Of a stretch of DNA of 64,000 nt, positions 19,928 to 41,364 are shown in pieces. Under the pieces are notes generated by a model. That model was not told the DNA's origin, did no database searches, and saw nothing but the letters and a program-made list of their open reading frames with translations. How positions within the stretch are numbered: position 1 is the first letter of the stretch; each line of letters begins with the position of its first letter. This DNA comes from an uncultured Clostridia bacterium (GTDB lineage: Bacteria; Bacillota; Clostridia; Oscillospirales; Butyricicoccaceae). The stretch spans positions 1 through 64,000 of the forward strand of contig CAMEZQ010000007.1 of NCBI GenBank assembly GCA_945947915.1. The letters are read 5' to 3'. The position numbers and the translations under genes are program-made.

Positions 19928-22006
19928 TTATTCGTCGGTGTCCTGATACTGGGATTCGGCGATGACCTTCTCCTGGATCATGGGCGGGACTTCCTCATAG
20001 CGCTCGAACTTGGTGGTGAAGGAGCCTCTGCCCTGGGTCATGGAGCGCAGGGTGATGGCATAGTCGCTGACCTCGGCCATGGGGACCTCGGCCTCGATGA
20101 CCTGGGTGCCGTCCTCGGCGGGATTCATGCCCATGATGCGGCCGCGGCGCTTGTTGAGGTCGCCGATGACGTCGCCCATGTAGCTGTCGGGCACGTTGAT
20201 CTTGATGGAGCAGACCGGCTCGAGGATGACGGGGTTGGCGTTGGGGATACCGGCCTTATAAGCCAGGCGTGCCGCCATCTTGAAGGAAAGCTCGTTGGAG
20301 TCGACGTCGTGATAGGAGCCGTCGGTCAGGGTCGCCTTGAGGCCGACCATGGGATAACCGGCCAGGACGCCGTGCTCCATGGCTTCGCGGATGCCCTTTT
20401 CAACGGCGGGATGGAAGTTCTTGGGAACGCTGCCGCCGAAGATGGTCTCTTCAAAGATGAAGTCCTGATCGCCGTCGTAGATGGGCTCGAAGTCCATCTT
20501 GACGTGGCCGTACTGGCCGTGGCCGCCCGACTGCTTCTTATGCTTGCCTTCGACGCTGACCTTTTTGCGGATCTTCTCGCGGTAAGCCACCTTGGGTGCG
20601 CTCAGCTCGACCTCGACGCCGAACTTGCTCTTGAGCTTGGAGCAGAGGACGTCCAGATGGATATCGCCGGCGCCCGAAATGACCATCTGCTTGGTCTCGG
20701 CGTTGTTGACCAGCGTGAAGGAGGGATCCTCGTCGCGCAGACGGTTGAGGCCGGAGACCATCTTTTCCTCGCCGCCCTTGACCTTGGGCGCGATGGCTCT
20801 GGAATAGCTGGGCTCGGCAAAGGCGACGCCGCGCAGGCGGATGCCGCTGCCGTTGAGGTTGAGGGTGTCGCCGGTGCGGGTGTTCTGCAGCTTGGAAACG
20901 GCGCCGATGTCGCCGCAGCCGATCTTGTCGACCTCATACTGCTTCTTGCCCTTGACGATGTAGATGTGGCCCATCTTCTCGGCAGCGCCGGTCTGGGCGT
21001 TGATGAGGGTCATGTCGGGGGTCAGGTCGCCCTGCATGACTTTGAAATAGGAGAACCGGCCGTACTGGTCGGCGATGGTCTTGAAGACGAAAATGGATGT
21101 GCTGCCGTTGGGGTCGAAATGCATCTCCACGGCGCTGCCGTCCTCATCGACGCCGCGCTCGACGCGCACTTCGTTGGGCGAGGGGGCAAAGTTGATGATG
21201 GCGCGGATCATATCCATGGTGCCCAGGCCGGTGTAGGCCGAGCCGCAGATGACGGGGGAGATGTCGCCGGCGATGACGCCTTTGCGCAGGCCGGCCAGGA
21301 TCTCTTCGTTGGTGAAGGACTCACCGGCGAAGTATTTCTCCATCATTTCTTCCGAGCTTTCGGCAACGGTCTCGATGAGGGAGGCGCGCAGTCTGGCCAC
21401 CTTTTCCTTCTTGTTCTCGGGGACCTCGTGCTCGGTGATCTTGCCGTTTTCGGCCTTGTAGACGATCTCGGACAAAAGGTTGATGACGCCCTCCGACTTG
21501 CCATTCGCATCGAACAGAGGAATGACGAAGGGTGTGACGCTGTTGCCGAAGGCCATACGCAGGGAGGCGTAGGCGTTTTCGTAATCGGCCTGCTCCTCGT
21601 CGACCTTGGAGATATAGAAGAAGGCGGGCAGCTTGCGCTTCTTGACTTCCTTCCACGCCTTTTCGGTGCCGACGGCGCAGCCGTTCTTGGCCGAGACGAC
21701 GATGATGCCGGCGTCGGCGGCGCGCAGCGCGCTCATGACCTCGCCCTCAAAATCGAAATAACCCGGGGTGTCGATCAGGTTGATGATGTTGCCCTTGAAC
21801 TCGATGGGCGCCAGCGAAAGCTGGATGGAGATCTGACGCTTGATCTCCTCGGCGTCAAAGTCGCTGACGGTGTTGCCGTCGGCTGTATTGCCCAGACGGT
21901 CGGTGCCGCCGGTCATGTAAAGCATGCTCTCCACCAGCGATGTCTTGCCGTCGCCGCCGTGGCCGAGCAGGCAGACGTTTCTGATTTTGTCCAGAGTGTA
22001 GGCCAT
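19928..22006 (-). CDS. EF-G-like translational GTPase (non-canonical paralogue)
   Basis: A 692-residue protein with the five-domain layout of elongation factor G. The G domain is divergent. G1 is GHGGDGKT (15-22) instead of A-H-x-D-x-G-K-T. The switch I RGIT is replaced by K-R-Q-I-S (56-60). G3 is DTPG (79-82). G4 is SKVD (133-136) instead of NKxD. Domain IV keeps G-G-H-G-Q-Y-G-H-V, and domain V ends normally. This matches the EF-G-like subfamily found alongside the true EF-G, which should be encoded elsewhere with the ribosomal genes. Its job is unclear; recycling or stress-specific translocation are possibilities. AAAGGAG precedes the ATG at 22006. Confidence 0.85.
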   Translation of the reverse strand: MAYTLDKIRNVCLLGHGGDGKTSLVESMLYMTGGTDRLGNTADGNTVSDFDAEEIKRQISIQLSLAPIEFKGNIINLIDTPGYFDFEGEVMSALRAADAGIIVVSAKNGCAVGTEKAWKEVKKRKLPAFFYISKVDEEQADYENAYASLRMAFGNSVTPFVIPLFDANGKSEGVINLLSEIVYKAENGKITEHEVPENKKEKVARLRASLIETVAESSEEMMEKYFAGESFTNEEILAGLRKGVIAGDISPVICGSAYTGLGTMDMIRAIINFAPSPNEVRVERGVDEDGSAVEMHFDPNGSTSIFVFKTIADQYGRFSYFKVMQGDLTPDMTLINAQTGAAEKMGHIYIVKGKKQYEVDKIGCGDIGAVSKLQNTRTGDTLNLNGSGIRLRGVAFAEPSYSRAIAPKVKGGEEKMVSGLNRLRDEDPSFTLVNNAETKQMVISGAGDIHLDVLCSKLKSKFGVEVELSAPKVAYREKIRKKVSVEGKHKKQSGGHGQYGHVKMDFEPIYDGDQDFIFEETIFGGSVPKNFHPAVEKGIREAMEHGVLAGYPMVGLKATLTDGSYHDVDSNELSFKMAARLAYKAGIPNANPVILEPVCSIKINVPDSYMGDVIGDLNKRRGRIMGMNPAEDGTQVIEAEVPMAEVSDYAITLRSMTQGRGSFTTKFERYEEVPPMIQEKVIAESQYQDTDE

Positions 22007-22068
22007 AAGTTGTTTCTCTCCTTTATGTAGAATCGTATAGATTTGCGCTTCAGCCGCTGTCACAAATT

Positions 22069-22154: not shown

Positions 22155-22190
22155 AAAAGGCGTCTGCCCCATCAGGCAGACGCCTTTTTT
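22155..22190 (-). terminator. Terminator of the P-type-ATPase-like gene
   Basis: AAGGCGTCTGCC pairs with GGCAGACGCCTT (22157-22186) around a 6-base loop, immediately after the stop codon. Confidence 0.85.
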
Positions 22191-24319
22191 CAAAACCGTG
22201 TCATAAAAATCGAGGCAAACCGCACCGGCACCAGCCAGATGAGCAGATACAGGGCGATATTGCCCGGCGAAGCCAGATAGATCTTGTCCATGGCGGCCAG
22301 GAAATACATGGTGATCATGCCGATGACGCTGCAGGCATAGCCGCAGAAAAGATTGAGGCGCACCGACCGCACCAGCGCCCGCGCCCCGGCCAGCACCTCG
22401 GCAAAGGCCAGCACGCTGTCCCGGGCCAGAATGGCGCACACCGGCTGGTCGTCGGCCAGATTCTCGTTCCAATAGGCCTCCCGCACCCGCAGCTCGGGGA
22501 TCTGCGCCCGGCCGTGCCGGACGGCGAAACGATCCTCCACCAGCTTTTCGCTGACGCTGAAGTCCCGGAGGGCCAGATCGGCCGTGATGCCGCACCGGCC
22601 CAGAATGCCGAAGGCGGTGTAGGGCTGGGGCTGGACGGTGTATTTCAGCGTGAAGATGGCGGCCATATAGGAATTGACCGAAACGAAAACGGCGTTTTTC
22701 TTGTCGCCGCCCTCGTGGACCATCACGCCCATCTTCTGCAGAAACTCGGCGCTGCCCATCAGGACGTAATCGCTCTGCACCTGGGCCGCGATGCCGCCGC
22801 CCTCAAAATAGCGCACGTTGAGGGCGCGGCGGGGCACCAGATACTGCTCCCTTGCGAAGTCGCCGAAGGCCTTGCCCACGCCGCCGCCCACCTCCTTCAT
22901 CACGGCGGCCGCGTCGGCCACCACCTGCTCCATCTTGATGGTGTTGGAGGTGATCTTCATGCCGGCGATATGGACGGCGCCCAGGGGAAACACGTCGCCG
23001 TCCAGCAGCGCCGCGTGCCGCACCCGGGCCAGCCGGCCGGCCGCCGGCGTATCCAGAATGGCGGCGCCCGAAGCAAAGAGCCGGCGGGCCACCCGCGCCC
23101 AGGGGCCGGTGGAGGCCACACACAGGGCACAGGGCGCCAGCACCGAGCTGATGACGGCCAGCGACCACACGAAACGCCCGCCGTCGCCCCGCCCGAAGCT
23201 GGCCACGGCGGCCAGCACGACGGCAGCCACGATGGCCACCGGCGCGAACACGCAGGAGGTGCGCTCGACCATATCCTGCGCGGCGGCGTCGTCGGTCTCG
23301 GCATAGGCCCGACTGTGGGTCTTGACGGCCGCACGGTAGCGTTTGCCGCCCACCGCCTTGACGGCCGTGGGGTCGGCGGCCATCTCCATGCATTTATAGG
23401 TGCGGCGCAGGGTCATGGCACGGCTGCGCTTGCCCGCCAGGGCAAAAAAGCAGCACAGGATGGCCACAAAGGCCAGCGGCTGCCCTTCCGACAGGCCCAG
23501 CGCCAGAAAGACGCAGTGCAGCAGGCAGCAAAGCGCCGAAAAAACCGTCAGGCTGTCCAGGGTCGGCCGCAGGCGCAAAAGCCGCCACAGGCCGGCCGTG
23601 GTCACCTCCCAGGCCAGCAGCAGCGCCAGAAAAACGCCGCCCGCCAGCAGCACATCCTGCAAAAGCTCCGGCGCCACGCCGGCTACGGCCGGCAGGCCGG
23701 GCAGGCCCAGCGCCGCGCCGAAGGTCAGATAGCCGGCGCCGGCCAGCAGCAGGGCCAGAAAGACCAGCCGCATGGACATGGCCACCAGCTTGCGTCCCAG
23801 CCGCTTGACGCCCCGGCTGGGATCGTCAAAAGCCACGTTGAGGAAATCGTAGGGCAGGTCCCCGGCTTCCTCCTCTTCTTCATAGGGCTCTTCTTCGATA
23901 TAATATTCTTCATCGTCGTCGGAAACGGGATAGGGGACAAATTGCTCCTCCCCGGCCCGGGCTGCGCCGGCCTCTTCCCGTTCCGGCCTCTCTTCCCGTT
24001 CCGCCGCCTCCGGCTCCCCGTCGGCTCCGCTGTCCGGCCCGCGGCGGCCGCGGCTGCGGAAGAGAATGACCCTGCGGCCCGGCGCCTTGTCCTCGCCCCG
24101 CACCTCGTCCTCTTCCGGCGCTTCTTTTTCCGGCTGTGCGTCGTGGCGCAGACGGCGCGGCTCTGCCGGCCCTTCGGCGCGGCTGTCGGGCCGCGCCTGG
24201 GGAATGAGCAGGTCGGGTCCGCCGGCTTCATCTCCGCCGTCATTCTGTCCGGCCCGGACCTCGGCGATGATGTCGTCAATGGAGAAGCGCTCCTGCCCTT
24301 CATTTGTTCTGTCGCTCAA
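22190..24319 (-). CDS. Degenerate P1B-type ATPase-like membrane protein, catalytic motifs missing
   Basis: A 709-residue protein. Residues 1-160 are acidic and low-complexity, with several Glu/Asp runs. The remainder follows the topology of a P1B metal ATPase: hydrophobic segments about 182-210, 222-245, 255-295, 355-375, 385-402 and two near the C-terminus. Alignable landmarks are altered. A-P-C (395-397) stands where the CPC metal motif belongs. L-D-G-D-V (439-443) replaces the phosphorylated DKTGT. The N-domain-like G-G-G-I-A-A-Q-V stretch (507-514) remains, but the GDGxNDxP hinge is absent. It therefore should not hydrolyse ATP by the P-type cycle. It starts 12 bases after the rlmB stop, so the two are co-transcribed. 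The function is unknown; a regulatory or structural membrane role is an inference. Confidence 0.7.
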   Translation of the reverse strand: MSDRTNEGQERFSIDDIIAEVRAGQNDGGDEAGGPDLLIPQARPDSRAEGPAEPRRLRHDAQPEKEAPEEDEVRGEDKAPGRRVILFRSRGRRGPDSGADGEPEAAEREERPEREEAGAARAGEEQFVPYPVSDDDEEYYIEEEPYEEEEEAGDLPYDFLNVAFDDPSRGVKRLGRKLVAMSMRLVFLALLLAGAGYLTFGAALGLPGLPAVAGVAPELLQDVLLAGGVFLALLLAWEVTTAGLWRLLRLRPTLDSLTVFSALCCLLHCVFLALGLSEGQPLAFVAILCCFFALAGKRSRAMTLRRTYKCMEMAADPTAVKAVGGKRYRAAVKTHSRAYAETDDAAAQDMVERTSCVFAPVAIVAAVVLAAVASFGRGDGGRFVWSLAVISSVLAPCALCVASTGPWARVARRLFASGAAILDTPAAGRLARVRHAALLDGDVFPLGAVHIAGMKITSNTIKMEQVVADAAAVMKEVGGGVGKAFGDFAREQYLVPRRALNVRYFEGGGIAAQVQSDYVLMGSAEFLQKMGVMVHEGGDKKNAVFVSVNSYMAAIFTLKYTVQPQPYTAFGILGRCGITADLALRDFSVSEKLVEDRFAVRHGRAQIPELRVREAYWNENLADDQPVCAILARDSVLAFAEVLAGARALVRSVRLNLFCGYACSVIGMITMYFLAAMDKIYLASPGNIALYLLIWLVPVRFASIFMTRF

Positions 24320-24330
24320 CTGATCACCCG

Positions 24331-25176
24331 TTATCCTCTTTGACGCAAAGCTTCATACAGCAGCACGGCGGCGGCGTTGGAGGCGTTGAGCGACTGGATG
24401 CGCCCCTTTTGGGGGATGCTGACGATGCAGTCGCTCTGCTCCCGCACCATGCGGGAGATCCCGGCGCCCTCCGCGCCGATGACGATGGCCGTCGGCCGGG
24501 CCAGGTCGGTCCCGTACATGGTCTGTCCGCCCATATCGGCGGCCACGACGGCGATGCCCCGTGCCTTGAGGTCCTCGATGGTCTGCTGCAGGTTGGACAC
24601 CTTGGCCACCGGCAGATATTCCAGCGCGCCGGCGGCCGCCTTGGCGCAGGCGGCGTTGATGCCGGCGCTGCGCCGCTTGGGCACGATGACGCCGTGGGCG
24701 CCCACCACCTCGCAGGTGCGGATGATGGCCCCCAGATTGTGGGGATCGGTGATGCCGTCGCAGATCACCAGCAGGGGAGCCTGGTCCCGCGCCCGGGCCA
24801 GCGCCAGGATCTCCTCCACCGATGCATACTGCACGGCGGCGCACAGGGCGATGATGCCCTGGTGGGCGCCGGTCTCGGAAAGCCTGTCCAGCTTGTGCCG
24901 GTCGGTCTCCTGGGCCTGGATGCCCTTTTCCCGGGCCTTGGCGATGAGATATCCCACCGTTTTATGGGAGCCGGGGGCGAAAAGGATCTTGTCGATCTCC
25001 CGGCCGCTCTCCAGCGCTTCCTCCACGGCATTCTTGCCCTCCAGAATGAGGGCGCGCTCCTCCTCGCTGCGTTCGTCCCGCGCCGCGGCCGCCGGTCCGC
25101 GCCGGACGCCGCCCCGGGGGCGGCCCGGCCCGGTCTGTCTGTTCTGTCTGTAATTCTTTTTATTGTCTTCTCTCAC
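24331..25176 (-). CDS. rlmB: 23S rRNA (guanosine-2'-O)-methyltransferase RlmB / TrmH family
   Basis: A 281-residue SpoU-class RNA methyltransferase using S-adenosylmethionine. Residues 1-40 are basic and disordered. Residues 45-120 form the L30e-like substrate-binding domain (E-G-K-N-A-V-E-E-A-L). The knotted SpoU domain follows, with motif 1 N-L-G-A-I-I-R-T, motif 2 V-I-G-A-E-G-x-G-I and motif 3 I-P-x-x-G-x-x-x-S-L-N-A-S. The GTG at 25176 was chosen because AGAGGT lies eight bases upstream; the frame runs on far into non-coding DNA. G2251 of 23S rRNA is the usual target; a tRNA target is possible. Confidence 0.9.
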   Translation of the reverse strand: MREDNKKNYRQNRQTGPGRPRGGVRRGPAAAARDERSEEERALILEGKNAVEEALESGREIDKILFAPGSHKTVGYLIAKAREKGIQAQETDRHKLDRLSETGAHQGIIALCAAVQYASVEEILALARARDQAPLLVICDGITDPHNLGAIIRTCEVVGAHGVIVPKRRSAGINAACAKAAAGALEYLPVAKVSNLQQTIEDLKARGIAVVAADMGGQTMYGTDLARPTAIVIGAEGAGISRMVREQSDCIVSIPQKGRIQSLNASNAAAVLLYEALRQRG

Positions 25177-28348: not shown

Positions 28349-28455
28349 CCGGCTGTTTTACATAACAAACAGAAAATTATATGATAAATATTCCGAATTG
28401 TAATATTTTGCCGCATTCTGGCGGCCAGATTTGTTTTTCAGGCAGAATATAGAGA

Positions 28456-28490
28456 AAGACCTGCGGCAAGGCCGCAGGTCTTTTCTTTTT
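28456..28490. terminator. Terminator after the MarR gene
   Basis: A perfect 12-bp stem (28456-28467 with 28471-28482), AAG loop and T-rich tail. Confidence 0.9.
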
Positions 28491-28522: not shown

Positions 28523-31159
28523 TTATTCCAGCGGCTGCTCAGGCATCCGCAGCCGCTGACCGCCGCCCTGTGCCCGGCTCTGTTCCAGGACCTGCCGGAT
28601 GCTCTGATTGACGGCCTCGACCTCCTGGCGGAACTCGCTGGCCGACACCCGCACGGCGCCGTGACCCAGAATGATGATCTGCTCCAGATTGTCCGACGTG
28701 GCCACCCGCACCCGGTTGTGCCGGGCAATGCTGTAGGTGGTGCGCTCGATATACATATCGGCCGTCTCCCGCTCTTTGGTATAGACCACATAGACGCCGC
28801 CCTGCTGCTCGATCTTTTCCACGCCGCCCTTGACTTTATAGGCGTCAAAGACCAGAATGACCGTGCTGCCGCGGTAACCGTGGTAGTTGATCAGCACGTC
28901 CAGCAGGGTCTGACGGGCGGCTTCCAGATCCTGATCGGCCAGCGCCTTCAGCTCCTCCCAGGCGAAAATGATATTGTAGCCGTCCACCAACAGGTATTCC
29001 CGGCCGGGCGCGGGCACGGCTTCCCTCTGCCGGGGCGCGGGCGCTTCGGCGGGCCGCGCCGGCTTTTTGACCGGGGCGAAGGTGTCGCGCTTGACGTTGG
29101 TGCCGTAGGTCATCTGGAAAATACGGGCCAGGATCTCCTCCTCCTCCCGGGAAAAGGGCACCAGCGTGGAGGCGCGGCGCACGGCCGTGTCCGCTTCGGG
29201 CAGCTCCACCTTGTTGAGCCGGGTCTTGAGAGGACTGACCGTGTGGGCCTCCCCGGGTACCTTATACCAGGGCACCACATGTCCGGCGCCGTGGGAACAG
29301 AAGACCGAATCGCAGGGGTTATCCACGTCCCGGTCGCTGTCGTAGCCCGAAGCCGCGATGACTTCGGCCTCGTTGTGGCAGGGCAGATAGCCCCGCAGGC
29401 GGAAGGTGATCCGCCCCCGGCCGTGGGTGAAGCCGGTCAGCTCCCGGGGATAATCCTTGATGCAGGCCACCGGCGCCGTGCCGGTCAGCACGGCCGTTTC
29501 GCCGTCGGTCTCCCCGGGCTGGAACTCCCCGTTCATGCGCTGTATATCGTTGATGACCCGGCCCATGGCGGCCGACGGCACCTCGATGCGGAAATCGTAC
29601 CAGGGCTCCAGCAGGCGGCATTTGGCCCGCTTGAGGCCCTGCCGGACGGCCCGGTAGGTGGCCTGCCGGAAATCGCCGCCCTCGGTGTGCTTGAGATGGG
29701 CGCGGCCGGCCAGCAGCGTGATCTTCATATCGGTGATGGGCGCGCCGGTCAGCACGCCCACATGTTCCTTTTCGGCCAGATGGGTGAGGACGAGGCGCTG
29801 CCAATTGAGATCCAGCTGATTCACCGGACAGACGGAATCAAAGACCAGGCCGCTGCCCGGCTCTCCTGGCTCCAGCAGCAGCCGCACCTCGGCATAGTGG
29901 CGCAGCGGCTCGTAGTGGCCGATGCCCTCCACCGCTTCGGTGATGGTCTCCCGATAGACGATGCTGCCCTGGCCGAACTCAACGGGGACGCCGAACCGGC
30001 TTTCCATGATCTGCCGCAGCACCTCCAGCTGGATCTCCCCCATCAGCCGCACATGGATCTCCTGCAGCTGTTCGTTCCATTCCACCCGCAGCTGTGGGTC
30101 TTCCTCCTGCAGCCGGCGCATATAGCCCAGCACCGTATGGGCGTCGAAGGTCTCGGGATAGAGCAGCCGGTAGGTCAGCACCGGCTGCAGCTCGGGCGCC
30201 TCGGCCTGGGGCGCGCAGCCCAGCCCCATGCCGGGATAGGTGCGGGTCAGCCCGGTGACGGCGCACACCGTCCCGGCCGGCGCCGTCTGGACGGCTTCAA
30301 AGCGGGCGCCGGAATAGACCCGCAGCTGGTTGGCCTTCTCCTCCCAGGCGTCCTCGCCGTCGCCGCCCCGCACAGTGTCCCGCACCCGCAGCGCGCCGCC
30401 GGTCACCTTGAGATAGGTCAGCCGCTCGTCTTTTTCGTCCCGGGCGATCTTAAAGACCTCGGCGCCGAATTCCGCCGGATAATCGGGCATCCGGGTCAGC
30501 TCCCGCATGGCCCGGAGCAGCGCGTCCACCCCTTCCAGCCGCAGTGCCGAGCCGAAGAAACAGGGATAGATCCGCCGTTCCGCGATGAGCCGGGCAACGG
30601 CCCCGGGGGCGATATCGCCGGTCTCCAGATACTGCTCCATCAGGCCCTCGTCACAGAGGGCGATGTCCTCCAACACCGCCTCCCACGGGCGGGAGAAATC
30701 GACGAAGCCCTCGCCCAGGCGGCGGCGCAGATCGGATAAAAGCTGCCGCTGCACGGCGCCGGCCAGGTCCATCTTGTTGATAAAAAGAAACACCGGGATG
30801 CCGTGGCTGCGCAGCAGCGACCAGAGGGTCTCGGTGTGGGCCTGCACGCCGTCGGTGCCGCTGACCACCAGCACGGCATAGTCCAGCACCCGCAGGGTGC
30901 GCTCGGCCTCGGAGGAAAAATCCACATGGCCGGGGGTATCCAGCAGGGTGATGGAGCAGTCCTCCCCCTCCAGCATGGCCTGCTTGGAAAAGATGGTGAT
31001 GCCACGCTGCCGTTCGATATCAAAGGTGTCGAGAAAAGCGTCGCCGTGGTCGACCCGCCCCAGCCGGCGGATGCTGCCGGCCGTATAGAGCAGCGCTTCG
31101 CTGAGGGTGGTCTTGCCCGAATCGACGTGGGCCAGAATGCCGAATACAAGTCGTTTCAT
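28523..31159 (-). CDS. Tet(M)-like ribosomal GTPase fused to a C-terminal NYN (Rae1/YacP-like) nuclease domain
   Basis: An 878-residue fusion. Residues 1 to about 670 resemble ribosomal protection proteins of the Tet(M)/Tet(O) family: G1 AHVDSGKT (10-17), RGIT (52-55), DTPG (74-77), NKMD (128-131), then domains II-V. All GTPase motifs are canonical. A proline-rich linker (about 695-720) leads to residues 721-855. This is a PIN-like NYN domain with L-L-V-D-G-Y-N-I (D726, N729), V-F-D-A-Y (D772), D801 and T-S-D-N (D823). It resembles Rae1/YacP, a ribosome-dependent mRNA endonuclease acting in the A site. The natural reading is a GTPase that delivers or clears a nuclease at the ribosomal A site. 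Whether it gives tetracycline resistance is unknown. Confidence 0.88.
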   Translation of the reverse strand: MKRLVFGILAHVDSGKTTLSEALLYTAGSIRRLGRVDHGDAFLDTFDIERQRGITIFSKQAMLEGEDCSITLLDTPGHVDFSSEAERTLRVLDYAVLVVSGTDGVQAHTETLWSLLRSHGIPVFLFINKMDLAGAVQRQLLSDLRRRLGEGFVDFSRPWEAVLEDIALCDEGLMEQYLETGDIAPGAVARLIAERRIYPCFFGSALRLEGVDALLRAMRELTRMPDYPAEFGAEVFKIARDEKDERLTYLKVTGGALRVRDTVRGGDGEDAWEEKANQLRVYSGARFEAVQTAPAGTVCAVTGLTRTYPGMGLGCAPQAEAPELQPVLTYRLLYPETFDAHTVLGYMRRLQEEDPQLRVEWNEQLQEIHVRLMGEIQLEVLRQIMESRFGVPVEFGQGSIVYRETITEAVEGIGHYEPLRHYAEVRLLLEPGEPGSGLVFDSVCPVNQLDLNWQRLVLTHLAEKEHVGVLTGAPITDMKITLLAGRAHLKHTEGGDFRQATYRAVRQGLKRAKCRLLEPWYDFRIEVPSAAMGRVINDIQRMNGEFQPGETDGETAVLTGTAPVACIKDYPRELTGFTHGRGRITFRLRGYLPCHNEAEVIAASGYDSDRDVDNPCDSVFCSHGAGHVVPWYKVPGEAHTVSPLKTRLNKVELPEADTAVRRASTLVPFSREEEEILARIFQMTYGTNVKRDTFAPVKKPARPAEAPAPRQREAVPAPGREYLLVDGYNIIFAWEELKALADQDLEAARQTLLDVLINYHGYRGSTVILVFDAYKVKGGVEKIEQQGGVYVVYTKERETADMYIERTTYSIARHNRVRVATSDNLEQIIILGHGAVRVSASEFRQEVEAVNQSIRQVLEQSRAQGGGQRLRMPEQPLE

Positions 31160-31250: not shown

Positions 31251-31283
31251 AAAAACCCCCTGTCCCGCAAGGGGGCAGGGGGT
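31251..31283 (-). terminator. Terminator of the MalY-type gene
   Basis: On the minus strand, ACCCCCTG (31276-31283) pairs with CAGGGGGT (31255-31262) and is followed by TTTTT. Confidence 0.8.
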
Positions 31284-34099: not shown

Positions 34100-35665
34100 T
34101 TATTCCGCCCAGGAGACGTAATGCCAATAGGTGTTGCCCGAAGCGTTGACCTCAAAGCCCTGCAGATCGGCGTCCATGGCACGGACGACGTTCATCGAAT
34201 AGGTGGGCACCTGGGGGCAGATCGACTGGATGTAAGCGACGCACTCTTCAATCAGCTTCATGCGCTCGGTCTCGTCCAGGGTCTGAACAGCGGTGTCGTA
34301 CAGCTCGTCGATCTTGGGATCGTTGGTGCGGGACCAGTTGGAGCCGCCGATCATCTTGGAGTGATACTTATACTCGATAAAGCCCAGGGTGTTGGAGGTG
34401 GTGCAGTTGCCGATGCAGGTCTCAAAGTTACCTTCGGCAGCGGTGGACAGGTAGGTGGCCAGGTCCATGGACTCCAGGTTCATGGTGACGCCGTACTCAG
34501 CCAGGGTGGCCTGGATGACTTCGCCGCAGCGGCGCTTGACGTCATCCGAGCAGATGCAGGAGAAGACGACCGTGGTGGGGTCGACGCCCGACTTGTCCAG
34601 GTACTCCTGGGCCAGTTCGGGATTGTATTCATCCATGTTGACATCGGTCGCGCCGGCGAACATGCCGGGGGTCTGACGATAGTTGGCCGTACCGGCGCCG
34701 TTCAGGGCGACCTCGACCAGCGCTTCCTTCTGAATGGCGCAGTTCATGAAGTGACGGAAATCCTGATTGTCAAAAGGTGCGATCTCATTGTTCAGGATCA
34801 GCCAGTTGAAAGAGGTGCCGGGGATATTATAAACGGCCACCTCAGGGTTTTCTTCCAGACGATCCAGGTCGTTGGTCTCGACTTCGATGATGACATCGAT
34901 CTCGCCGGCTTCCAGAGCGATGGTTCTGGAGGAGCCTTCGGGGATGATTCTCCAGGTCATATGCTTGATGGCCGGAGCGCCTTTCCAGTAATTTTCGTTG
35001 GCTTCAAACTCAATGCTGTTGCCCAGATCCCACTTGACAAACTTGTAGGCGCCCGAGCCGACAGGGTTGGCGTTGAAGTCGTTGCCCTCTTCGATCAGCT
35101 TCTTGGGCACGATCTTATGAGAGGACATATCGTACAGTGTCTTGGCGTAGACAGTCTTGGTGGTGACCTTGAACTGTGTCTCGTTCAGGACCTCAACAGC
35201 TTCCCAGAACTGAGAATAGTTGGTGGTGTAGGCGCTGTTCTCTCTGGCGTACTCCATGGAAGCCACCAGGTCTTCTGCGGTCACCTTGTCGCCGTTATGG
35301 AAATAAACGTCATCGCGAATGGTGAAGACCCACTCGGTATCGCTGGGGTTCTCCCAGGAAGTAATGACGCCCGGTTCCGGCTCCAGCGTATCGACATTGG
35401 TACGAAGGAAGGTATCAAATGTCAGTGAGTTCATGTAGTTGGAGGCGATGGCGCTGTGTTCGTAAGGATGCAGCGTGGGCGGCTCGTTGGCTGTGGCGAT
35501 AACGATGCTGTCCTTTGTTTCGCCGGTTGTTTCACTGCCGGCCGTGTCGCCGGTGTTTTCCCCGTCGGTTTCCCCTGTTGTGTCGTTCTTACCGCAGCCG
35601 GCGAAAGCCGCCAGAACGAACACCAGAGCCAGTACGAGGGAGAGAAGCTTTGTCCACTTCTTCAT
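34100..35665 (-). CDS. Family 5 extracellular solute-binding lipoprotein, array copy 1
   Basis: A 521-residue lipoprotein. The signal peptide ends in lipobox A-F-A-G-C (Cys24), followed by a Gly/Thr-rich linker. The mature part starts with I-V-I-A-T-A-N-E-P-P-T-L-H-P, the N-terminal lobe of SBP_bac_5 proteins (OppA/DppA). A CxC-containing segment F-S-C-I-C-S-D-D-V-K-R-R around residue 365 recurs in all five paralogues. Such proteins capture oligopeptides, nickel complexes or sugars and pass them to an ABC permease. None is encoded nearby, so a distant permease must be shared. It is closest to copy 3, with long identical DNA stretches. It has its own promoter and terminator. Confidence 0.9.
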   Translation of the reverse strand: MKKWTKLLSLVLALVFVLAAFAGCGKNDTTGETDGENTGDTAGSETTGETKDSIVIATANEPPTLHPYEHSAIASNYMNSLTFDTFLRTNVDTLEPEPGVITSWENPSDTEWVFTIRDDVYFHNGDKVTAEDLVASMEYARENSAYTTNYSQFWEAVEVLNETQFKVTTKTVYAKTLYDMSSHKIVPKKLIEEGNDFNANPVGSGAYKFVKWDLGNSIEFEANENYWKGAPAIKHMTWRIIPEGSSRTIALEAGEIDVIIEVETNDLDRLEENPEVAVYNIPGTSFNWLILNNEIAPFDNQDFRHFMNCAIQKEALVEVALNGAGTANYRQTPGMFAGATDVNMDEYNPELAQEYLDKSGVDPTTVVFSCICSDDVKRRCGEVIQATLAEYGVTMNLESMDLATYLSTAAEGNFETCIGNCTTSNTLGFIEYKYHSKMIGGSNWSRTNDPKIDELYDTAVQTLDETERMKLIEECVAYIQSICPQVPTYSMNVVRAMDADLQGFEVNASGNTYWHYVSWAE

Positions 35666-35804
35666 GTTTGGGTTCTCCTTTTCTTTTTCCTTTTTTATTC
35701 AAAGCCGCGCCTGTGGGCACGGCGATGAACCAATACCAATCAAAAGACGAATATCCGGCACAGGCCGGGATCGTTATTTTTTTATCAGAACTGTGCATAA
35801 CTTC

Positions 35805-35833
35805 ATTGTATGCAGAAACGCTGGAAAAAGCAA
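35805..35833 (-). promoter_or_regulatory. Promoter of solute-binding gene 1
   Basis: On the minus strand, TTGCTT (35828-35833), 17-base spacer, TACAAT (35805-35810). The leader is about 135 bases. Confidence 0.65.
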
Positions 35834-36003
35834 TACCTAACATTGAAAAAAATACATCTGCTTTTTGCACAGATTTAACAATTTTCAACTTTTTCTTCGC
35901 AAACACTTCATATTCTGTGGATTTTTCATATTTTTTCGCACTTTTTTGACCTGTATTTTCATACAAAACAAATGCAAAAAACAGAAATTTATGTAAAATT
36001 ATG

Positions 36004-36039
36004 TAAAAAGCGGAGCGTATTCTTAAAATACGCTCCGCT
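36004..36039 (-). terminator. Terminator of solute-binding gene 2
   Basis: AGCGGAGCGTATT pairs with AATACGCTCCGCT (36009-36039). Confidence 0.85.
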
Positions 36040-36073
36040 GTATATTGGTTTTGTGTGCGAGTACTGCCGATTG

Positions 36074-37618
36074 TTATTCACCCCAGGAGACATCCTCCCA
36101 ATGGAGGCCGCCGGAGGGCGAGACCTTGATGCCCTGCAGATTGGCATTGTAAGCGCGGGTGACATTGGTCAGATAGGTGGTGACCTGCGGGCACATCTCA
36201 TTGAGGCGTGCGGCGCACTGCTCCAGCAGATCCATGCGATCCTTTTCATCCAGCGTCTTGACGGCCTTCAGATACAGCTCATCCAGCTTGTCGTCGGTGA
36301 AGTTCTTGGCCGAACCGCCGGCAGCCACCGACAGATACTTGCCCTCGATATAGGACATCATATCCGATGTGGTATAGCCGCCCAGCGCCGCTTCAAAGTC
36401 GCCGTCCTGCACCGCTGCCAGATAGGTGGCCAGGTCCATGGATTCCAGATTCATCGTGATGCCGAACTCGGCCAGGTTGGCCTGAATGACCTCGGCGGCG
36501 CGCCGCTTGACGTCATCCGAGCAGATGCAGGAGAAGACGACGGTACTGGGATCCATGCCCGATTGATCGAGATACTCCTGGGCTTTCTTCAGATCGTAGC
36601 TGTCGATATTCTCCTCGGAATAACCCGGGAAAACCGCGGGCGTCTGGCCCCAGATGCCGGTGCCGGCGCCGTTGAGGGCCACCTGCATGACGGCGTTCTT
36701 ATCCACCATGCAGTTGAGGGCCTTGCGGAAGTCCACATTGTCAAAGGGATACTGCTTGGTATTGAGGATCATGCCGTTGTGACCGGTGCCGGTCTGGTTG
36801 AGGACGGTGATGCCCTTGCTCTCCTGCAGGCGGGTCAGGTCGTTGGATTCGACTTCCACGATGAAGTCGATCTCGCCGGCCTCCAGCGCGATGGTGCGGG
36901 AGGAGCCTTCGGGTACGATGCGCCAGGTCATGCTCTTAATGGCCGGGGCGCCCTTGAAATAATCTTCAAAAGCTTCAAATTCCAGGCTGTCGCCCAGGGT
37001 CCACTTGACGTACTTATACGGGCCTGTGCCGATGGGGTTGGCATTGAAGTCGTTGCCCGCGTCGATCAGGCTCTTGGGCACGATCTTCATACGGGTCAGG
37101 TTGATGGTGGCTTTGGCGCAGGGGGTGGGGGTATGGACGCGGATGGTGTAATCATCCACCACTTCGATCTCATCCCACCAGTTGGTGTAGATGCTGGTGT
37201 AGGCCGAATAATCGCTGCGGCCCCATTCCATCGAAGCCTTGACATCGGCGGCCTTCATTTCCTCGCCGTTGTGGAACTTGACGCCCTTGACCAGCTGGAT
37301 CTCCCAGTTGTTGTCATCGATGGGCGCGACCTTCTCGGCCAGACAGGGGATCGGCTCCATGGTGTCGAGATCCGATGTCATCAGTGTGTTGTAGGTCAGG
37401 CCGTTCATGTAGTTGGCGGCCACGGCATTGTGGTTATAGGGATGCAGCGTGGGCGGTTCATTGGCCGTGGCGATGATCACATCGGTGCGGCCGGAAGCTG
37501 TCTGCCCCTCCCCGCCGCTGGTCGTCTGATCATCCTCCGTCTTGCCGCAGGCGGCAAACAGCGCGAAGACCATCAGCATGGCCATAGTCAGGCTGAATAA
37601 TTTGACCAGTTTCTTCAT
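36074..37618 (-). CDS. Family 5 extracellular solute-binding lipoprotein, array copy 2
   Basis: 514 residues with lipobox L-F-A-A-C (Cys24). It is the most diverged of the five: the mature N-terminus reads D-V-I-I-A-T-A-N-E-P-P-T-L-H-P-Y-N-H. Several ligand-region segments differ from the others, for example P-C-A-K-A-T-I-N-L-T-R-M where the others have V-Y-A-K-T-L-Y-D. The F-S-C-I-C-S-D-D-V-K-R-R and N-L-E-S-M-D-L-A-T-Y-L segments are retained. This suggests a different substrate preference on a common scaffold, an inference. It has an independent promoter and terminator. Confidence 0.9.
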   Translation of the reverse strand: MKKLVKLFSLTMAMLMVFALFAACGKTEDDQTTSGGEGQTASGRTDVIIATANEPPTLHPYNHNAVAANYMNGLTYNTLMTSDLDTMEPIPCLAEKVAPIDDNNWEIQLVKGVKFHNGEEMKAADVKASMEWGRSDYSAYTSIYTNWWDEIEVVDDYTIRVHTPTPCAKATINLTRMKIVPKSLIDAGNDFNANPIGTGPYKYVKWTLGDSLEFEAFEDYFKGAPAIKSMTWRIVPEGSSRTIALEAGEIDFIVEVESNDLTRLQESKGITVLNQTGTGHNGMILNTKQYPFDNVDFRKALNCMVDKNAVMQVALNGAGTGIWGQTPAVFPGYSEENIDSYDLKKAQEYLDQSGMDPSTVVFSCICSDDVKRRAAEVIQANLAEFGITMNLESMDLATYLAAVQDGDFEAALGGYTTSDMMSYIEGKYLSVAAGGSAKNFTDDKLDELYLKAVKTLDEKDRMDLLEQCAARLNEMCPQVTTYLTNVTRAYNANLQGIKVSPSGGLHWEDVSWGE

Positions 37619-37698
37619 GGATTTCTCTCCTTTTCTCCGTTTGTTGATTTTGTTAACAAATGCACCGAAAATTTATTAACAAAAATTAACTCACCTAT

Positions 37699-37727
37699 AC
37701 TTTACACAGAAACTGCCGCGCTTGCAA
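37699..37727 (-). promoter_or_regulatory. Promoter of solute-binding gene 2
   Basis: On the minus strand, TTGCAA (37722-37727), 17-base spacer, TAAAGT (37699-37704). The leader contains a TTTGTTAACAAA palindrome at about 37651-37662. Confidence 0.65.
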
Positions 37728-37836
37728 CCATCAGAAGCGATTTTCTCTACAAGCCTCTCCTTTTTTGTATATATTGCACAATTATCTATATTTTTTTGGG
37801 AAAGAAACCAAAAAATCGCCCGATTTCCCGCGGAAC

Positions 37837-37868
37837 AAAAAAAGAGACGGTCCATAAGGACCGTCTCT
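37837..37868 (-). terminator. Terminator of solute-binding gene 3
   Basis: AGAGACGGTCC (37843-37853) pairs with GGACCGTCTCT (37858-37868); T-run on the minus strand. Confidence 0.88.
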
Positions 37869-37909
37869 GAAAACAAATTCTGTTTTACAGGCTTTCGCCT
37901 CGGCGCTGA

Positions 37910-39487
37910 TTACTCAGCCCAGGACACATACTGCCAGTAGGTGTTGCCCGAAGCGTTGACCTCAAAGCCCTGCAGATTGGCGTCCAGAGCGCGGACGACG
38001 TTGGAGGAGTAGGTCGGGATCTGGGGGCACAGCTCCTGGATGTAAGCGACGCACTCTTCGATCAGCTTCATGCGCTCGGTCTCGTCCAGGGTCTGAACAG
38101 CGGTGTCGTACAGCTCGTCGATCTTGGGATCGTTGGTGCGGGTGAAGTTGGAGCCGCCGATGGACTTGGAGTGATACTTGTACTCAACAAAGCCCAGGGT
38201 GTTGGAGGTGGTGCAGCCGCCGATGGTGGCTTCAAAGTTACCTTCAGCAGCGGTGGACAGGTAGGTGGCCAGGTCCATGGACTCCAGGTTCATGGTGACA
38301 CCGTACTCAGCCAGGGTGGCCTGGATAACTTCGGCGCAGCGACGCTTGACGTCATCCGAGCAGATGCAGGAGAAGACAACCGTGGTGGGATCGATGCCCG
38401 ACTTGTCCAGGTACTCCTGGGCCAGTTCGGGATTGTATTCATCCATGTTGACATCGGTCGCGCCGGCAAACATGCTGGGCGACTGACGGTAGTTGGCTGT
38501 ACCGGCGCCGTTCAGGGCGACCTCGACCAGCGCTTCCTTCTGGATGGCGCAGTTCATGAAGTGACGGAAGTCCTGATTGTCAAAAGGAGCCTTCTCGTTG
38601 TTCAGGATCAGCCAGCTAAAGGATGTGCCCGGCTTCTCAACGATCTGAACGTTGGAATCTTCTTCCAGACGAGCCAGGTCGTTGGTCTCGACTTCGATGA
38701 TGGCGTCGATCTCACCGGCTTCCAGAGCGATGGTTCTGGAGGAGCCTTCGGGGATGATTCTCCAGGTCATGTTCTTGATGGCCGGAGCGCCGTCCCAGTA
38801 TTCCTCATTGGCAACGAAGGTGATGCTGTCGCCCAGCTTCCACTCGACGAACTTATACGGACCGGTGCCGACGGGGTTGGCGTTGAAGTCATTGCCCTCT
38901 TCGATCAGCTTCTTGGACAGGATCTTATGGGAGGACATGTCGTACAGCGTCTTGGCGTAGACAGTCTTGGTGGTGACCTTGAACTGTGTCTCGCTCAGAA
39001 CTTCGACAGATTCCCAGAACTGAGAGTAGTTGGAGGTATAGGCCTCGTTCTCACGGGCATACTCCATGCTGGCAACCATATCCTCAGCGGTCAGCTTATC
39101 GCCATTGTGGAAATAAACGTCGTCACGAATGGTGAAAATCCACTCGGTATCGCTGGGGTTCTCCCAGGAAGTGATGACGCCCGGTTCGGGTTCCAGGGTC
39201 TCAACATTGGTGCGCAGGAAATAGTCGTGTGTCAGATAGTTCATGTAGGTCGCCGCGACTGCGCTGTGAAGATAAGGATGCAGCGTGGGAGGCTCGTTGG
39301 CCGTCGCGATGACGATGCTGTCCTTGGTCTCGCCTGTGGAAGCAGTGTTGTTGTTCTGCTCTGTGTCGCTGCTGGTGTCTGTGCTGGTATCGGTGGTGTC
39401 GTTGCTGCCGCCGCAGCCGACCATCATCGAAAAAGCCATTGCAAAGACCATCGCCAGGCCGAGCAGACGGATCCATGTGTGCTTCAT
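37910..39487 (-). CDS. Family 5 extracellular solute-binding lipoprotein, array copy 3
   Basis: 525 residues with a distinct signal peptide and lipobox M-M-V-G-C (Cys25), then a Ser/Thr/Asp-rich linker. From S-I-V-I-A-T-A-N-E-P-P-T-L-H-P onward it is nearly the same as copy 1, and DNA blocks of about 80 bp are identical (38061-38142 versus 34251-34332). This implies a recent duplication or gene conversion. The signal peptide and promoter are not shared with copy 1. The transcription start lies next to an inverted repeat (39557-39580), so this copy may be under separate control. Confidence 0.9.
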   Translation of the reverse strand: MKHTWIRLLGLAMVFAMAFSMMVGCGGSNDTTDTSTDTSSDTEQNNNTASTGETKDSIVIATANEPPTLHPYLHSAVAATYMNYLTHDYFLRTNVETLEPEPGVITSWENPSDTEWIFTIRDDVYFHNGDKLTAEDMVASMEYARENEAYTSNYSQFWESVEVLSETQFKVTTKTVYAKTLYDMSSHKILSKKLIEEGNDFNANPVGTGPYKFVEWKLGDSITFVANEEYWDGAPAIKNMTWRIIPEGSSRTIALEAGEIDAIIEVETNDLARLEEDSNVQIVEKPGTSFSWLILNNEKAPFDNQDFRHFMNCAIQKEALVEVALNGAGTANYRQSPSMFAGATDVNMDEYNPELAQEYLDKSGIDPTTVVFSCICSDDVKRRCAEVIQATLAEYGVTMNLESMDLATYLSTAAEGNFEATIGGCTTSNTLGFVEYKYHSKSIGGSNFTRTNDPKIDELYDTAVQTLDETERMKLIEECVAYIQELCPQIPTYSSNVVRALDANLQGFEVNASGNTYWQYVSWAE

Positions 39488-39556
39488 GTTCTTTTCTCCT
39501 TTTTTTGATTTTCATTTTCTTTCATCCGCCGGCAAGCGGAAAAAGAAAATTATTAC

Positions 39557-39580
39557 TGCGAAATTCTTGTTTATTTCGCA
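39557..39580. promoter_or_regulatory. Inverted repeat at the transcription start of solute-binding gene 3
   Basis: TGCGAAAT (39557-39564) and ATTTCGCA (39573-39580) are perfect 8-bp arms separated by 8 bases, just downstream of the -10 box of copy 3. This is an operator-like position. Confidence 0.5.
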
Positions 39581-39586
39581 ATGATT

Positions 39587-39615
39587 ATAATAATTTAAAG
39601 CTAACGCAATTTCAA
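39587..39615 (-). promoter_or_regulatory. Promoter of solute-binding gene 3
   Basis: On the minus strand, TTGAAA (39610-39615), 17-base spacer, TATTAT (39587-39592). Confidence 0.6.
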
Positions 39616-39700
39616 CTCCTTTTTTACATTTTTGTATATAGGTCACAAGCAATATCTGTTACCACGATGCTGTTTTTGGTGATTTTTCTTTTATCCATAT

Positions 39701-39732
39701 AAAAAGACGACCCCATCTGGGGTCGTCTTTTT
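39701..39732 (-). terminator. Terminator of solute-binding gene 4
   Basis: AAAAAGACGACCCC-ATCT-GGGGTCGTCTTTTT, a perfect 14-bp stem including the A/T ends. Confidence 0.9.
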
Positions 39733-39783
39733 ATATTTGTGACTTTCAGTTACGCTGTTTTTCTGCTGATCCCGGCGGGAAGA

Positions 39784-41364
39784 TTATTCGCCCCAGGAGA
39801 CATACTGCCAGCGGAGGGTGTTGGCGGCCGAAACTTCGATACCCTGCAGGTCATCGATGTAAGCTCTGGTAACGTTGGCGCCGTAGGTGGGAACCTGCGG
39901 GCAGATCTCGTTGATGTAGTTGGCGCACTCGGTGAGGATAGCGTTGCGCTCATCGGCATCCAGAGTCTTGGTGGCCTTGTCGTACAGCTCGTCGATCTTG
40001 GGATCGTTGGTGCGGGTCCAGTTGGAACCGTTGATGGACTTGGAGGTGAACTTGCCTTCGATGAAGGACATCATGTTGGACGATGTATAACCGCCGATGC
40101 AGGTCTCAAAGTCGCCGTCAGCAGCAGCCGACAGATAGGTGGCCAGGTCCATGGACTCCAGGTTCATGGTGACGCCGAACTCGGCCAGGTTGGCCTGGAT
40201 AACTTCGCCGCAGCGGCGCTTGACGTCATCCGAGCAGATGCAGGAGAAGACGACGGTCTTGGGATCGACGCCCGACTTGTCGAGGTACTCCTGGGCCTTT
40301 TCCAGATCATAGCCGTCGGGGATCTCGGTGGCAGCGCCGCCGGAGAAGACAACGGGGGTCTGGGTGTAGTTGCCGGTGCCGGCGCCGTTCAGAGCAACGG
40401 CCACCAGGGCGTCCTTCTCGATGGCGCAGTTCATGAAGTGACGGAAGTCCTGATTGTCAAAGGGAGCCTTTTCGTTGTTCAGGACCAGGAAGTTGAAGGA
40501 GGTACCGGTCTTGTTGATGACTTCGATGCCGTCGGTCTCTTCCAGACGGCCCAGGTCGTTGTTGTCGACCTCAACGATGAAGTCGATCTCGCCGGCTTCC
40601 AGCGCGATGGTTCTGGAGGAGCCTTCGGGGATGATGCGGTACTTCAGATGCTTGATGGCGGGAGCACCTTCCCAGTAATCTTCAAAGGCTTCGAACTCGA
40701 CGCTGTCGCCCAGGGTCCACTTGACGTACTTATAGGGACCGGTGCCGATGGGGTTGGCAGCAACGGCGTCGTTGCCCTGCTCCACCAGCTCCTTGGGCAG
40801 AACGTAATGGGAGCTCAGGTCGATCAGTGTCTTGGCGTAAACTTCCTTTGTGGTGACGACGACGGTGTAGTCGTCAACGATCTCCAGCTTTTCCCAGAAG
40901 GTCGAGTAGGTGTTGGTGTAGGAAGAATTCTCTCTGGCGTATTCCATCGAAGCGACGATGTCTTCAGCGGTCATGTCGCTGCCGTCGTGGAACTTGACAC
41001 CCTTGCGGATGTTCAGCTGCCACTGCTTGTCGTTGAGGATCTCATAGGATTCGATCAGGCAGGGTTCGGGTTCCAGAGTTTCGATGTTGGACTGGAACAG
41101 GGTGTTGTGGGTCAGGATGTTCATGTAGCCGCCGGCAACAGCACTGTGCTGATGGGGGGCCAGCGTGGGAGGCTCGTTGGCTGTGGCGATGACGACCAGG
41201 TCGTTGGCCTTGTTCTGCGACTGTACGCCGCCGGAGGATGTCTTCTCGCCGCCGTCGGTCTTCTCACCGTCGGTGTTGTCGTTGCCGCCGCCGCAGGCAG
41301 CCATCAGCGAGAAGGCCAGCATAAAGACCAGTGTCAGGCTGAGCAGTTTGACCAGTTTCTTCAT
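39784..41364 (-). CDS. Family 5 extracellular solute-binding lipoprotein, array copy 4
   Basis: 526 residues. The signal peptide is almost identical to that of copy 5 (lipobox S-L-M-A-A-C, Cys24). The linker is rich in Asp/Gly/Lys. Mature segments include V-V-I-A-T-A-N-E-P-P-T-L-A-P-H-Q-H, F-S-C-I-C-S-D-D-V-K-R-R and the terminal W-Q-Y-V-S-W-G-E. It pairs with copy 5 as the second closely related pair in the array. The substrate is unknown. The replacement of L-H-P-Y by L-A-P-H-Q at the start of the mature domain separates copies 4 and 5 from 1-3. Confidence 0.9.
   Translation of the reverse strand: MKKLVKLLSLTLVFMLAFSLMAACGGGNDNTDGEKTDGGEKTSSGGVQSQNKANDLVVIATANEPPTLAPHQHSAVAGGYMNILTHNTLFQSNIETLEPEPCLIESYEILNDKQWQLNIRKGVKFHDGSDMTAEDIVASMEYARENSSYTNTYSTFWEKLEIVDDYTVVVTTKEVYAKTLIDLSSHYVLPKELVEQGNDAVAANPIGTGPYKYVKWTLGDSVEFEAFEDYWEGAPAIKHLKYRIIPEGSSRTIALEAGEIDFIVEVDNNDLGRLEETDGIEVINKTGTSFNFLVLNNEKAPFDNQDFRHFMNCAIEKDALVAVALNGAGTGNYTQTPVVFSGGAATEIPDGYDLEKAQEYLDKSGVDPKTVVFSCICSDDVKRRCGEVIQANLAEFGVTMNLESMDLATYLSAAADGDFETCIGGYTSSNMMSFIEGKFTSKSINGSNWTRTNDPKIDELYDKATKTLDADERNAILTECANYINEICPQVPTYGANVTRAYIDDLQGIEVSAANTLRWQYVSWGE

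Follow-up and report, generated by a model that had tools for sequence, protein, structure and literature searches.

The fusion gene and its surroundings

The window, a stretch of 64,000 nucleotides from an uncultured Clostridia bacterium, carries on its minus strand a gene (28523..31159) whose single open frame runs from an ATG at 31159 to a stop codon ending at 28523. According to its Pfam architecture, the 878-aa product joins a translational GTPase to a nuclease domain of the Rae1 (YacP) type. The first-pass annotation had described a continuous 878-codon frame without naming a strand; translation of the open reading frames confirmed this frame on the minus strand, and translation of 28523-31159 on the plus strand gives a product other than the fusion protein. 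Homologues that are 46-80% identical have the same layout, and because the architecture was found again in hundreds of genomes, it reflects neither chance nor an assembly join.

All parts of the protein are given here with their minus-strand coordinates. The G domain occupies residues 4-221 (30497..31150; PF00009 GTP_EFTU, E 1.5e-50) and contains all of the G motifs, which we read by eye as AHVDSGKTT (10-18), RGIT (52-55), DTPGH (74-78), NKMD (128-131) and GSA (203-205). G1 to G5 are thus canonical, as had been claimed, and they are invariant or nearly so in 31 members. The EF-G-like domains II, III, IV and V follow at residues 232-597 (29369..30466) and match EF-G_D2 (PF22042, 232-306), EFG_III (PF14492, 326-396), EFG_IV (PF03764, 399-513) and EFG_C (PF00679, 515-597). 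Alignments placed two tip loops in domain IV, GHYEPLRHYAEV at residues 412-425 (29885..29926) and AHLKHTEGGDFRQA at residues 487-500 (29660..29701), the second of which includes K490. A C-terminal extension with an SVFC motif, aligned at residues 604-640 (29240..29350) and predicted to form a hairpin plus a helix, leads into a linker of residues 641-720 (29000..29239) that is mostly disordered, with one predicted helix at 671-685. We ruled out that residues 616-628 of the extension form a Cx4CxHx3H zinc site, C621 being the sole invariant position. The NYN_YacP nuclease domain covers residues 723-864 (28568..28993; PF05991, E 1.5e-49). In a PDB sequence search, the closest solved chains were TetO and TetM for residues 1-594 and YacP/Rae1 (5mq8, 5mq9) for residues 722-873.

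The model of the NYN domain had a mean pLDDT of 84.8 and a pTM of 0.78, and a Foldseek search with it returned Rae1 as the only match at E<=0.001 (5mq9, E 1.2e-12, TM 0.72/0.78). The structural comparison with Rae1 that had been proposed as a check therefore gives an NYN fold. In the full-length model, residues 604-640 form a small, confident extension (block pLDDT 83-88), and the pLDDT across the linker 641-720 is 35-61. With its pTM of 0.54, the full-length model does not fix how the nuclease and the GTPase are placed with respect to each other. The predicted fold aligned to ribosome-bound EF-G over residues 1-609 (Z 37, rmsd about 10). The full-length Foldseek comparison covers the top chains only, places that were filled by one domain; TetM and TetO chains were absent among its best 50 rows, which has no bearing on kinship.

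A pattern scan of the sequence found a terminator-like hairpin between the fusion and the aminotransferase gene upstream of it (31255..31276, minus strand) and a second, two-way hairpin, not assigned to a strand (28454..28484), between the fusion and a converging gene for a MarR-type regulator. With such hairpins on either side, the fusion gene is probably transcribed by itself. Downstream of the MarR-type gene follow an AI-2E transporter, an amino acid kinase and, a few kb from the fusion, rlmB (24331-25155, minus strand), an order of neighbours that is largely conserved in the genus and not in the rest of the family. Clustering of the neighbours in 104 fused loci gave no conserved operon partner; the families present were common ones, such as ABC transporters, MATE proteins and response regulators, none of which occurred in more than 15 loci. 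A search for a leader RNA or attenuator upstream of the fusion gave no Rfam family above threshold.

The gene rlmB lies directly upstream of rae1 in B. subtilis and in most of the stand-alone loci that we checked. Among the fused loci, it is near the fusion only in the source genus, and there on the downstream side. Because the order is reversed and confined to one genus, we ruled out that rlmB is a relic of an ancestral rlmB-rae1 operon, and its proximity to the fusion is probably a coincidence.

The same strand of the window also encodes a 709-aa protein (22190-24319) with no Pfam match at E 1e-8, which is conserved at the same place in the genus, and an EF-G2-like second EF-G-type protein of 711 aa (19928-22063), about 6.5 kb from the fusion. 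The normal EF-G of the source genome is encoded on another contig (C49), so that EF-G and its EF-G2-like paralogue are separate genes beside the fusion. The fusion shares the five-domain plan of EF-G and differs from it in the tip loops and the C-terminus. In addition, the region 34100-41364 (minus strand) holds four tandem, closely similar solute-binding protein genes (34100-35665, 36074-37618, 37910-39487 and 39784-41364), the first of which matches extracellular solute-binding family 5.

Replacement of stand-alone Rae1 and changes in the nuclease domain

We examined a sample of 293 genomes drawn from the class Clostridia and sorted them by a search with the GTPase domain IV-V-extension together with NYN_YacP matches. 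An NYN_YacP protein was present in 192 of the 293; among the 151 matches listed, 59 were short stand-alone proteins, 87 lay in frames of at least 600 aa, and 5 were intermediate in length, probably because they are truncated at a contig end. The fusion is carried by 104 genomes (a few copies being split by contig ends), which bears out the earlier expectation that the architecture is widespread in Clostridia. Stand-alone Rae1 was found in 89 genomes, about 30 of them assigned by an NYN_YacP match without a GTPase-family match, and an unfused form of the GTPase (about 620-730 aa) in 19. Some lineages have neither the fusion nor stand-alone Rae1. A scan of named genomes gave at least 590 relatives of the fusion, the best 80 of which come from Oscillospiraceae, Lachnospiraceae, Ruminococcus, Butyrivibrio, Fusibacter, Anaerovorax and others. 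Fused and unfused forms were found in other families of the phylum too.

The fusion and stand-alone Rae1 occur together in a single genome (G321), against 31.6 expected (Fisher p 5e-20, a value that ignores the shared ancestry of the sampled genomes and so overstates the effect). Three further genomes with an apparent second NYN domain were set aside, the second match being below the family cut-off. Three families (f36, f37 and f65) contain both states, and one genus within f36 (g56) is itself mixed, with two fused genomes (G056 and G085) and one stand-alone genome (G243). The stand-alone Rae1 proteins of these three families form a clade separate from that of the fused domains (support 100/99) on an NYN tree whose bootstrap is not fully settled. 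The fusion thus replaces stand-alone Rae1, with one form giving way to a version of the other that has a separate line of descent. Such swapping, together with mutual exclusion, is expected if both forms do the same job, and this replacement is the strongest functional evidence that we have for the fusion.

The active site is the same in both forms. Residues D726, D772, D801, E805 and D823 are invariant in an alignment of 117 fused and 39 stand-alone NYN domains; the first-pass annotation had noted the retention of all of these except E805. Rae1/YacP of B. subtilis (5mq8, 5mq9), an endoribonuclease that cuts mRNA in the ribosomal A site (PMC6613710), has the NYN fold and all of these acidic residues in common with the fusion. 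However, it is a stand-alone protein of about 170 aa with a conserved C-terminal tail of the type LEK(W/L)RR, which the fused form lacks. The strict motif (LEK.RR) was found in 24/39 stand-alone domains and in 0/117 fused ones, and a relaxed form in 34/39 and 3/117, respectively. In addition, R837 is present in 100% of stand-alone and 75% of fused domains. In B. subtilis, the Rae1 substitution R166P suppresses an efp defect as rae1 null mutations do (PMC6613710) and thus behaves as a loss of function; R166 sits in the tail, as does W164, the position altered in the crystal entry 5mq9. The simplest inference from these comparisons is that the tail helps stand-alone Rae1 to act on the ribosome and that the GTPase made it dispensable. 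The loss of the tail and the relaxation of R837, with the catalytic site kept, suggest that targeting was taken over by another part of the protein.

We also found the fusion encoded in two unannotated Bacteriophage sp. records from human faeces (MT835563.1, 5421-8012, 57% identity; MT835514.1, 15276-17774, 47% identity), which may represent bacterial flanks of prophages. Residues 1-631 match PHROG 6880 with 464 bits.

The GTPase family and its unfused relatives

On a tree of the GTPase part, obtained by a quick search and carrying SH-aLRT supports only, the fused proteins form one clade (99), and the unfused proteins form its sister clade (86). A branch with a support of 100 separates both from the Tet(M/O/S/W/Q) and TetB(P)-like proteins, whose own branch has a support of 85. 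TetB(P) was considered as an unfused relative and ruled out, since a TetB(P)-like protein branches on the Tet side. With this topology, one fusion event plus some later losses suffice. A copy from Ligilactobacillus salivarius without the NYN domain (L182, 4986-6920) branches inside the fused clade and is most simply explained as a loss of that domain; this copy excepted, the fusion is stable across the clade. Megaplasmids of L. salivarius widely carry the NYN-less copy, annotated as a TetM/TetW/TetO/TetS family resistance protein, a label that is probably a mis-annotation.

Fused and unfused forms share features that set them apart. The tip loops GHFEPLRHYAEV, H.GVLTG and H.KHTEGGDFR are common to both and are unlike those of Tet proteins and EF-G; GHYEPLRHYAEV in particular is nearly or fully invariant in the fused family, occurs in the unfused sister clade too, and is absent from Tet(M/O/S/W). 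The SVFC extension is likewise found in the unfused relatives and is absent from Tet proteins and EF-G.

A separate Rae1 is present in 13/19 genomes with an unfused GTPase as compared with 75/170, a weak enrichment (p 0.054). The Rae1 of two unfused-GTPase genomes (G246 and G262) branches with the fused NYN domains, a placement that fits two parts that have either yet to be fused or come apart again. On the other hand, Rae1 is missing from 6/19 unfused-GTPase genomes, so the GTPase must also have work that does not involve it. In genome G143, a stand-alone Rae1 is accompanied by two unfused copies of the GTPase (L168, 4183-6150; L169, 3756-5699). We also observed a further Tet-like group of about 680-730 aa (L078, 3269-5305; L181, 3417-5618) with its own domain IV tip, HTHPLDFF. 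This group branches with the TetB(P)-like proteins, and each of its host genomes has a fused or an unfused member as well.

Proposed mode of action and alternatives

We propose that the fusion acts as a ribosome-dependent mRNA endonuclease of the Rae1 type and that the translational GTPase covalently attached to it has assumed its recruitment, and we put the probability of this reading at about 0.58. For the fusion itself, we infer ribosome binding, cleavage, the order of events and the control by, or coupling to, GTP. The first-pass annotation had suggested a factor that places an mRNA nuclease at stalled or drug-bound ribosomes. A translational GTPase joined to an intact Rae1-type nuclease is most simply read in that way as far as the placement at ribosomes is concerned, and the replacement of Rae1 adds new support; the part concerning drug-bound ribosomes and protection is not supported.

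In the proposed sequence of events, the GTPase in its GTP form would, in the manner of EF-G and Tet proteins, bind a paused ribosome whose A site is free, and the family-specific tip of domain IV would read the decoding centre. Domain IV would depart after GTP hydrolysis, and the NYN domain, tethered by the flexible linker, would move into the A site or to the mRNA entry side and cut the mRNA, leaving the ribosome open to rescue by tmRNA or similar systems. Alternatively, the nuclease could cut on a neighbouring ribosome or at the mRNA entrance. Tet proteins take up an A-site position that overlaps those of EF-G and tetracycline, and their departure depends on GTP hydrolysis (PMC8161019). A point missed by the first-pass annotation is that the A site has no room for domain IV and the nuclease at the same time. 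Because domain IV and Rae1 compete for this one site, a hand-over along the 80-residue disordered linker would be needed, and the likely order would be the GTPase first and the nuclease after GTP hydrolysis. Since Rae1 works without a GTPase in Bacillus, however, the GTPase need not recruit the nuclease. The wider proposal, that a new GTPase clade took over Rae1-type A-site nuclease targeting across Clostridia and that GTP hydrolysis licenses the hand-over, is tentative, and we would put it somewhat below even odds.

The resemblance to Tet proteins raises the question of tetracycline. The combination of a Tet protein with a nuclease is in print: Atkinson 2015 (PMC4342817) noted in two sentences, without experiment, that Tet proteins of ten Clostridiales had acquired a YacP-like NYN RNase domain, an architecture and bacterial group identical to ours, and suggested a resistance mechanism. 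Under that idea, the fusion would be a ribosomal protection protein with an added RNase. TetO and TetM are indeed its closest solved homologues by sequence, it has the five EF-G-like domains and intact G motifs of Tet(M)/Tet(O), with about 30% identity over residues 1-593, and NCBI labels some relatives as TetM/TetW/TetO/TetS family. However, the fused proteins fall outside the clade of resistance Tet proteins, and the match to the NCBIfam model NF012153 (tet_protect) scores 408.7 bits, below the cut-off of 775. The tip loops differ, and the fusion has in addition the SVFC extension, the linker and the nuclease. In TetM, Pro509 makes contact with C1054 where tetracycline binds (PMC8161019); the fusion has Lys490 at this position, and a lysine stands there in 78/79 named fused loci. 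The fusion also lacks a conserved operon partner, and one genome (G036) has, beside the fusion, a canonical 639-aa protein identical to Tet(W). These comparisons speak against the drug-protection role suggested by the first-pass annotation and make tetracycline protection unlikely, indeed rather improbable in our estimate; on this evidence, the fusion should not be classed among the tetracycline resistance proteins.

A different possibility is that the two halves are uncoupled, with the NYN domain doing the ordinary job of Rae1, the GTPase doing a separate job related to drugs, stalls or translocation, and the fusion fixing their joint expression only. The existence of the GTPase in unfused form, also in genomes without Rae1, the L. 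salivarius member of the fused clade that has lost its NYN domain, and the length and disorder of the linker all fit this explanation. The lost tail and the relaxed R837 beside an intact catalytic site argue against it, as does the stability of the fusion across the rest of the clade, and we consider it unlikely, although worth keeping in mind. The fusion might instead be a maturation or decay factor for rRNA or tRNA, with the GTPase docking on ribosomes or subunits and the NYN domain trimming or destroying rRNA. Atkinson 2015 (PMC4342817) quotes an early prediction on NYN domains that points in this direction, but the closest characterised relative, Rae1, cuts A-site mRNA and is replaced by the fusion, which makes such a role very improbable. 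Finally, a nuclease joined to a sensor-like GTPase, with copies in two gut phage records, could be seen as an anti-phage or toxin-like protein that shuts off translation. Such a protein is hard to reconcile with the lack of recurrent neighbours in 104 loci and with a single copy across many families, as for a housekeeping gene, and we regard this as the most far-fetched of the explanations; the PADLOC models gave no match for the fusion protein.

Returning to a Rae1-type nuclease targeted by its GTPase, the replacement of Rae1, the loss of the tail and the unfused sister clade add to earlier knowledge, to the extent of our checks, and the distinction of the GTPase clade from resistance Tet proteins likewise goes beyond the report of Atkinson 2015. 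In a literature search whose scope left aside the main Rae1 papers (Leroy 2017, Condon 2018, Deves 2023), we found no experimental paper on the fusion, and the NCBI product name for such proteins is "translation factor GTPase family protein". The earlier description of the system as little-described is thus right, but the system is not undescribed, and with its architecture in print since 2015 the novelty is limited.

Few bacterial nucleases are known to cleave mRNA at the ribosomal A site, and Rae1 is one of them. A nuclease of this type welded to a GTPase expected to probe the A site in many gut Clostridia makes the trigger of Rae1 testable, with GTP analogues and domain swaps. Our results suggest that mRNA cutting on stuck ribosomes is under GTPase control in fusion-bearing Clostridia, and, if true, the fusion would cleave mRNA on bacterial ribosomes at a moment set by its GTPase. 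Furthermore, public genomes label relatives of the GTPase as tetracycline resistance proteins, a name that the sequence evidence opposes and a point of relevance to resistance surveys. Ribosome-linked mRNA cleavage is also carried out by the Smr-domain collision nucleases MutS2 and SmrB, whose nuclease fold is unrelated to the NYN domain of the fusion. The source genome encodes a separate Smr-domain protein of 890 aa, so that Smr-type collision rescue is probably covered elsewhere in this organism.
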